Assembly (NCBI RefSeq): GCF_001904615.1
Contig: NZ_MRBY01000002.1
Coordinates: 62,001-126,000 of the forward strand
Reading direction: 5' to 3'
Source of the DNA: [Limnothrix rosea] IAM M-220
GTDB lineage: Bacteria; Cyanobacteriota; Cyanobacteriia; Cyanobacteriales; MRBY01
Length of the DNA: 64,000 bases
Under the pieces are notes generated by a model. The model was not told where the DNA came from. It ran no database searches and saw only the letters and a list, made by a program, of their open reading frames with translations. Positions 33,925 through 57,814 of the stretch are shown here, one piece after another. A program made the position numbers and the translations under genes. Within the stretch, counting starts at the first letter, position 1. The number at the start of each line of letters is the position of its first letter.

Positions 33925-34077
33925 GTCAGAGGTTTGTTGAAAGGTGGTAAAACGACGCGGTGAAGGGGAGAGTGGGTGACGGGGAGATTTTCATTGAATT
34001 GATTTTGGGTCGAGTAGAGCTTGCCAGATTGATTCCGCCGCGTCCCCTTGTCTCCGTGTCTCCCTCGCTTTCGGGTT
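33925..34077. repeat. Degenerate miniature repeat, possibly same family as the next element
   Basis: Contains ACGACGCGGTGAAGGGGAGAG near its left side and CCGCCGCGTCCCCTTGTCTCC near its right side, which pair as an imperfect inverted repeat. The ACGACGCGG block is shared with the elements at 34087 and 57157. Its ends and target duplication are not clear. Confidence 0.45.
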
Positions 34078-34086
34078 TTAAATATA

Positions 34087-34277
34087 ACGTCCGTTCGGGT
34101 TAAGGAGTTATCTGAATGCCTTGAAGACATGGGGACATTGGGATGGGGAGACATGGGACATCAACGGACACTCGCATTTTTTGACTCCTAGAATTGTTTG
34201 AATGAAAAATCGCCCCATCCTTCGCTCTCCCTGTCGCCGCGTCGTCATTCCAGACCATGCTTAAACCGAACTCAGGT
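34087..34277 (-). mobile_element. Miniature inverted-repeat element, copy A
   Basis: About 191 bp flanked by a direct repeat TAAATATA (34079-34086 and 34278-34285, extendable by one T). The ends are imperfect inverted repeats: ACGTCCGTTCGGGTTAAG on the left; ACCTGAGTTCGGTTTAAG on the right, read inward. From the right end inward it aligns well with the left part of the element at 57157 (shared CATG, ACGACGCGGCGA and GGGAGAGCGA blocks). It has no coding capacity. It abuts the stop codon of the M42 peptidase. Confidence 0.75.
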
Positions 34278-35380
34278 TAAATATAGGACATCAATAGTTT
34301 TAAAACACCGGCGATCGCCGACAAAGAAGCAGTTTCCGTTGCTGTGTGATAATCCGTCGTCGGAATTTGTAGCGTTGTGCCGTTGATTTCTCCTTCAGTG
34401 GCAACAATAATCCGGCCTAACTCCGTGCGACCAAGGGGATAGGGTCTACTACGGGTTTCGTTTTGCGTTGCAATATATTCATCCTTAAAGCCGTAACTTA
34501 AACCTAATTCCTCGCAGCGAGTCACTAATTCTTGGGTCATGGCCTCCGAAAATTCCCCATTAGCATCTCGATGACGCAACGTTACCTGTTGAACATCCGC
34601 ATCTTCGCGGGTGGCGTAGGGACTTGTATCGAGCACCACTAATCTTTGGGTGGTCAATCTTTCCCGTTGAAACCAAGACAAGGCATAGCGCCAACTGCGG
34701 CCAGACTCTTCTTGGGCTGTAAATAAACCTGTGCCCTGAAATCCTTTCCGAAACAGATAAATAATCATCGCAGCACTGACGACATTATCCAGCTGTGCCG
34801 ACATTAAACCATTTTCAATTTGCAAACGATCTAGAAAAGAGATGGGTGTACCCGGTTGCAAAAATTCCAGACCATCGACTTCAAAAATTAGATTATTGCG
34901 TTCGGGGCAAATGTAGGAATTTGTGATTTCTCCTTGGGCAAGGTAAGTGCCGGTATAGGGAAAATGTGCTTGTACCCGCTGTCCTTGGAAGCGATTTTCG
35001 ATGGTATTCAGCATATGTTCCGATACGGAGTCTCCCATTACTTCACCGCGATTTCCGGCGATAAAGGCGGCATATTGAAATTCATTGGGCCCTGTGCAGA
35101 GTAAGCCGTGGCGGTCAATGTGGGCGGAGAGAAATAGGTCATGGGGTTTACTGCCCTGGGCGACGAGGACACCGTGGTAAAGCTGTACGTTGAGGTGGTC
35201 AAATTCTTCTAGCTCCCGGCGCAAAATTCGGAAGAATGCGTCTTCGTTACCCACTACGGATGGCTGACGAATGAGGGGCTTAAGGATATCAATGAATTCT
35301 GCGAGTTCGGCATAGTCGGTTTCGACATCGGCGATCGCCCCGAACGTTAATTGTTCAAGTCCCAATTCCAAAGCATCCAT
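34277..35380 (-). CDS. M42-family aminopeptidase-like protein
   Basis: Metallopeptidase of 367 residues of the M42 (glutamyl aminopeptidase/FrvX) class. Visible zinc-ligand regions are LSAHIDRHG (about residue 84), SAQLDNVVSA (bridging Asp, about 195), TAQEESGR (catalytic Glu pair) and VVLDTSPYA. A C-terminal His is present in TTDYHTATE. Likely a cytosolic tetrahedral-type aminopeptidase trimming peptides. Its TAA stop sits in the target duplication of a miniature element. Confidence 0.82.
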   Translation of the reverse strand: MDALELGLEQLTFGAIADVETDYAELAEFIDILKPLIRQPSVVGNEDAFFRILRRELEEFDHLNVQLYHGVLVAQGSKPHDLFLSAHIDRHGLLCTGPNEFQYAAFIAGNRGEVMGDSVSEHMLNTIENRFQGQRVQAHFPYTGTYLAQGEITNSYICPERNNLIFEVDGLEFLQPGTPISFLDRLQIENGLMSAQLDNVVSAAMIIYLFRKGFQGTGLFTAQEESGRSWRYALSWFQRERLTTQRLVVLDTSPYATREDADVQQVTLRHRDANGEFSEAMTQELVTRCEELGLSYGFKDEYIATQNETRSRPYPLGRTELGRIIVATEGEINGTTLQIPTTDYHTATETASLSAIAGVLKLLMSYI

Positions 35381-57064: not shown

Positions 57065-57814
57065 ATGGGCGCAGATAAAACCAATTCTCAAACAGCGATT
57101 ATTGTGGCCTCAATTACGGTGGTCGGCACATTAGGCGCTTCATTGTTTGCTAATTGACGTGAGTTTTGCTTAAGCATGCTCGGAAGTACGACGCGGCGAA
57201 TGGGAGAGCGAGAGATCGGGAGATGTTTCTATGCCAACAATCCTACTAGCTTTCAAACAATGCAAATTTTCGTTGCTTCCCCGTGTCTTTCCCTCTCCGT
57301 GTCTCCTCTTCTCTAAAGAATTTTGGCTACATTCTTATCCATAACTGACGTTAATTGGGATAAAGTTTTTCCACCAAAAGAGTCGCCCTCTAGCTCGACT
57401 CCAACCGTCGAAGTGCCTGCACCAAATACCTCATCAGATTCCCCACCAACCCTAGAAACAACACCCATTAGCTCAGACGGTTTTGCAGGCTTTTGGTCGT
57501 CGGAGAAAGATGTGACGGCGCAATATTTGGTGGATATTATCTTAAAGTCAGACGGCACGAAACTATCTGGTGAATTGCAGAGTTTTAACCAAGCGGGTGA
57601 GGATCAGTCACCATCGTTCTCTATTGCAGGAGAGTTTACTGGGGAGCAAGGTACTGTGGAGATTTTTGATCAAAGTGGTGCTGCACTTGGTAAGGCTGAG
57701 CTGACGCTGGCAAATGGGGCTCTAGAGCTAAAGATGCTGGAAGCGGCAGGCCTTGTGCAAGAAACCGTCCCGACGCAGGCGACTTTGTATCCCATTGATG
57801 CGGCAGAATTTTAG
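57065..57814 (+). pseudogene. Membrane-anchored protein gene split by a miniature element
   Basis: The left piece (57065-57157) encodes MGADKTNSQTAII plus a hydrophobic helix ending LGASLFAN, then a stop created by the element. The right piece continues from 57358 with WDKVFPPKESPSS. Removing the 195-bp element and one TAATTG copy joins the two in frame, giving about 182 residues: a short cytoplasmic start, one helix, a Pro/Ser/Thr-rich linker and a beta-rich domain (about residues 70-180, GFAGFWSSEKDVTAQYLVDII). Function unknown. The right part could still be made from an internal TTG (57323), and the left part as a 30-residue peptide. Confidence 0.75.
57157..57351 (+). mobile_element. Miniature inverted-repeat element, copy B
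   Basis: A 195-bp element flanked by TAATTG (57151-57156 and 57352-57357). Ends read inward as ACGTGAGTTTTG and ACGTCAGTTATG, 10 of 12 matching. It shares the end and the ACGACGCGGCGA...GGGAGAGCGA block with the element at 34087-34277 in opposite orientation. Non-coding. It interrupts a gene. Confidence 0.8.

Follow-up and report, generated by a model that had tools for sequence, protein, structure and literature searches.

In the 64,000-nucleotide stretch of DNA analysed here (the window), the interval 57065-57814 is a gene split by a miniature insertion, as an earlier note made from the sequence had described it. The insert is very probably a non-autonomous miniature inverted-repeat element (MITE) of the IS982 type, mobilised in trans, whose insertion broke up a small gene lying downstream of rsmH. 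The locus shows cleanly how a miniature transposon can split a gene, the pre-insertion state being kept in a related species, and it connects IS982, with few MITEs described to date, to a MITE family of high copy number. The features are as follows, G005 being the related genome of the same genus used for comparison:

57065-57157, plus strand: left part of the disrupted gene: MGADKTNSQTAIIVASITVVGTLGASLFAN (30 codons) followed by TGA; corresponds to the N-terminal end of the uninterrupted G005 protein
57151-57156: TAATTG target-site duplication, left copy
57157-57351, plus strand: MITE1 element, 195 bp, without a transposase gene; ends placed by alignment of about 30 copies and by the duplications flanking them
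57157-57178, plus strand: terminal inverted repeat of the left end, ACGTGAGTTTTGCTTAAGCATG, with 83% identity to the G005 IS982 ends over its first 18 bp
57323-57814, plus strand: 163-aa frame with a putative TTG start within the element, continuing into the right part
57330-57351, minus strand: terminal inverted repeat of the right end, reading ACGTCAGTTATGGATAAGAATG on that strand, with 89% identity to the G005 IS982 end over 18 bp
57352-57357: TAATTG target-site duplication, right copy
57358-57814, plus strand: right part of the disrupted gene, from WDKVFPPKE... to its stop codon, with no internal stop
34087-34277, minus strand: copy of the MITE2 subfamily, 191 bp
34079-34086 and 34278-34285: 8-bp duplications TAAATATA of the 34087 copy

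The two TAATTG copies bounding the 195-bp insert are perfect, and its terminal inverted repeats, which had likewise been claimed, are present in imperfect form, with 17 of the 23 outermost positions of the 57157-57351 element matching between the two ends. The TGA that closes the left frame (57065-57154, 30 codons) is made by TAATTG together with the first base of the insert. Dropping the insert together with one TAATTG copy removes 201 bp, a length divisible by three, and joins the flanks into a single 182-codon frame (...LGASLFAN-WDKVFPPKE...), upholding the earlier claim that excision rejoins one reading frame. No additional stop or frameshift interrupts the right part, and the element itself encloses only a trivial 46-aa frame.

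The locus had also been put forward as a before-and-after record of the insertion, to be checked against an uninterrupted orthologue. Such an orthologue was found in G005, as one stop-free 186-aa frame with 65% identity over query positions 1-182, which keeps LFANWDKVF intact across the position of the insertion junction. In both genomes the gene neighbours what appear from their sequences to be rsmH and fabI. Since the G005 gene is unbroken beside these same neighbours, the split represents the derived state. In a search covering the six genomes available for the genus, the gene turned up split in that of the window and unbroken in G005, while the four others returned no match; the opposite arrangement, an orthologue with the left peptide and the right protein as separate genes, was sought and not found, one orthologue having been recovered.

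Comparison of the split gene with its G005 orthologue gives a dN of 0.25 and a saturated dS of about 2, suggesting constraint on the host gene for most of its history. No Pfam or NCBIfam family was recognised for its protein, for which reason a family name was dropped, and the scan of the named genome collection gave no match to it. The protein is putatively membrane-anchored, a hydrophobic N-terminal stretch being the sole basis for this description. Close downstream of the unbroken gene, G005 carries a remnant of IS982 (L090:1090-1255) that ends in CCAGAACTCACGT.

As opposed to plain disruption, the right part could still be expressed from the TTG in the element to give a truncated cytosolic protein, a reading that accords with the 163-aa frame starting there, the freedom of the right part from additional stops or frameshifts and the constraint on the gene between lineages. 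It is nevertheless unlikely, as by eye no strong ribosome-binding site is seen ahead of the TTG, the hydrophobic N-terminal stretch would be missing from the product, and the absence of decay is equally expected after a recent insertion. That the two frames were always separate genes, with the element merely in the intergenic space, is scarcely credible, because although the window shows two distinct frames, in G005 a single stop-free frame runs across the junction through an unbroken LFANWDKVF, and leaving out the element and one repeat copy restores the frame exactly.

The splitting of the gene by a mobile element can further be set against the occurrence of the element across its own genome, where the 195-bp sequence has at least 41 matches, 40 of them at 88-100% identity (the count being a lower bound, with the best 40 candidates scored). 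The 22-bp terminal repeat, allowing up to 3 mismatches, has 230 matches there (116+114) as against 0 for a reversed control pattern. On account of these two counts, the TAATTG-bounded insert is not a product of chance, and the 230 ends suggest that the family probably exceeds a hundred copies in the genome of the window. Aligned copies lie at a mean distance of about 2% from their consensus, and the window copy at 3%. The results of this survey of copy number and target bias, which the earlier note had proposed, fit a miniature inverted-repeat element, and the insert has the marks of a MITE: a length below about 300 bp, lack of a transposase gene, terminal inverted repeats, many near-identical copies and target-site duplications, coupled with a relative in which the gene is unbroken.

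Beyond this genome, the whole element had no copy in 39 other genomes, which returned one weak 42-bp match, and a search of 388 further genomes from the order yielded 7 matches to the terminal pattern, in 5 genomes. Scanning the named genome collection with the exact 22-bp repeat gave no match, and no earlier description of the family was found in the papers searched. The DNA of the window is GCGATCGC-rich, and its sequence and gene content would fit a cyanobacterial host. A structured RNA was rejected as the identity of the element, since Rfam returned no match and the folding z-score, at -1.4, did not stand out. A candidate 1.55-kb autonomous element at C29:8426-9978 turned out to consist of separate short elements and ordinary genes.

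The family comprises a second subfamily, represented in the window by the copy at 34087. The earlier note had linked the two window copies through a shared block in opposite orientation; this is borne out by a common block of about 150 bp (73.5% identity over 151 bp), inverted between them, which includes one end while the other ends differ. The insertion point of the 34087 copy coincides with the stop codon of the minus-strand gene 34277-35380, and the gene keeps its stop, the TAA at 34277 being regenerated by the duplication and the end of the element. Adjoining this copy at 33952-34060 is an interior-like block (GACGCGGTGAAGGGGAGAG...) without recognisable ends, perhaps a degraded older element. 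Elsewhere, a second-subfamily element apparently sits within a MITE1 copy at both L034:1408-1790 and L061:5964-6380, with TAGTA flanks in each; either the target was hit repeatedly or the composite moved as a unit. At L057:1699-2079 a tandem pair of different subfamilies is separated by only TATTTA.

Perfect target duplications of 6-8 bp, mostly 6 bp, flank most intact copies. Among 16 six-bp duplications, positions 1, 2, 5 and 6 are T, A, T and A in 16, 14, 16 and 14 cases, respectively, giving a TANNTA consensus. Duplicate records were removed by hand from the set of 39 distinct insertions and genes were taken as simple open frames, making the following figures approximate. Frames of at least 100 codons hold 5 of the 39 insertions, compared with 100 of the window's 164 TANNTA sites (Fisher p = 3e-8). 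Of the five insertions, four are at most 50 bp from the end or start of the frame, and the 57157 copy is the sole one among the 39 cutting a gene body. Of the 34 intergenic copies, 30 have a stop codon as their nearest feature, while background sites do so in 30 of 64 cases (p = 2e-4, a conservative value calculated with 30 to 5). This closeness is partly explained by the TA contained in stop codons, and 12 of the 64 intergenic TANNTA background sites are likewise within 10 bp of one. About ten other copies (at L005, L006, L014, L015, L021, L028, L029 and L039) lie at, or a few bases from, the stop codon of a gene. The simplest reading of the site pattern is selection against insertion in genes and promoters.

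The earlier note did not name IS982 as the parent; the lead by which this family was recognised is the IS982 remnant near the intact gene in G005. That genome has 117 matches, full and partial, to the IS982 transposase domain, and the transposase of its full-length copies scores 255.9 bits for the NCBIfam IS982 equivalog (cut-off 130). These copies measure 963 bp, start with ACGTGAGTTCTGGATAAG and carry 6-bp T....A duplications. IS982 ends are known to start with AC and their direct repeats to vary in length (PMC7335449). The MITE ends agree in their AC start, the duplications are mostly 6 bp and T....A in both, and the outer 18 bp of the two MITE ends show the 83% and 89% identity to the G005 ends listed above. 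This similarity stops after 18-28 bp, with nothing detectable in the interior. Additionally, a full-length IS982 match in a more distant genome of the same order (G094) has the ends ACGTCAGTTTTGGTTAAGC, which closely resemble those of the MITE. On comparison of these sequences, the parental type of the MITE would be IS982, but, with nothing detectably shared beyond the ends, direct descent from the G005 element itself need not follow.

Mobilisation by a transposase of another family with coincidentally similar ends is very improbable. The lack of an intact IS982 gene in the window assembly and the restriction of the likeness to the ends would suit such a scenario, but the transposase-bearing IS982 elements of G005 share both matching ends and target duplications, and matching ends also surround the IS982 gene in G094. 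Further, the one DDE_Tnp_1 gene of the genome sits in an element with unrelated ends, ruling it out as the parent, and the 42 contig starts that do not fall in the MITE family reveal no other element with these ends.

An origin from IS982 raises the matter of the transposase source. In the window's own 92-contig assembly, a search for an intact IS982 transposase returned only two decayed IS982 fragments, and no IS982-type end appears at any contig start not belonging to the MITE family. The MITE family accounts for the assembly of this genome into many contigs: 49 of the 91 contig starts inspected fall inside it, typically about 53 bp in (e.g., L068-L077, L146-L197), which makes it the main cause of the breaks. 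Contig C92 reads N at both ends shown. The assembly would also conceal any IS whose first 53 bp are those of the MITE, so that the absence of an intact IS982 is unproven. The source has been either lost or left unassembled. An IS982 with ends like ACGTSAGTTWTG, if intact in the strain, would be that source. A tentative reading, to which we give less than even weight, is that the family is a fossil burst of over a hundred copies whose own IS982 transposase has since decayed, with G005, which has more than 100 IS982 matches and lacks the MITEs of this family, as the mirror case.

Under the mechanism proposed here, an IS982-family DDE transposase acting in trans would recognise the AC-starting inverted repeats of the MITE and insert it at the TA-rich hexamer TAATTG, which repair of the staggered cut would then duplicate. 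The resulting junction would create the TGA after codon 30, splitting the small gene downstream of rsmH with probable loss of its function, and the same IS982-type transposition would give rise to the more than a hundred copies in the genome, the related 34087 subfamily included. Copies, ends, target duplications, the unbroken orthologue and the matching IS982 ends in relatives are directly observed, and it is the transposase step that we infer, as the window assembly holds no intact IS982 gene.

Nezha and other cyanobacterial MITEs are likewise short, non-autonomous inverted-repeat elements, and are tied to other IS families. The 963-bp IS982 of G005 resembles the present MITE in its AC-starting ends, 83-89% identical over the outer 18 bp, and its 6-bp T....A duplications, while the MITE differs from it in lacking a transposase gene and in its unrelated interior. 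The genome of the window and G005, where IS982 is abundant and the MITE absent, form a natural pair for relating MITEs to the abundance or loss of their parent. The closest parallel is MITECca01, the MITE of the IS982 element ISCca4 in Cardinium cOegib (PMC9769881). Like the present MITE, it is short (~240 bp), has IS982-like inverted repeats, exceeds 100 copies per genome, is restricted to a lineage and is mostly intergenic, rarely disrupting genes (PMC9769881). The present MITE differs in its presumably cyanobacterial host, its sequence and its two diverged subfamilies; further, Cardinium has kept intact ISCca4 copies, whereas the present assembly contains no intact parental IS. IS982-derived MITEs are thus already published, and the novelty here is the family, with no new mechanism needed.
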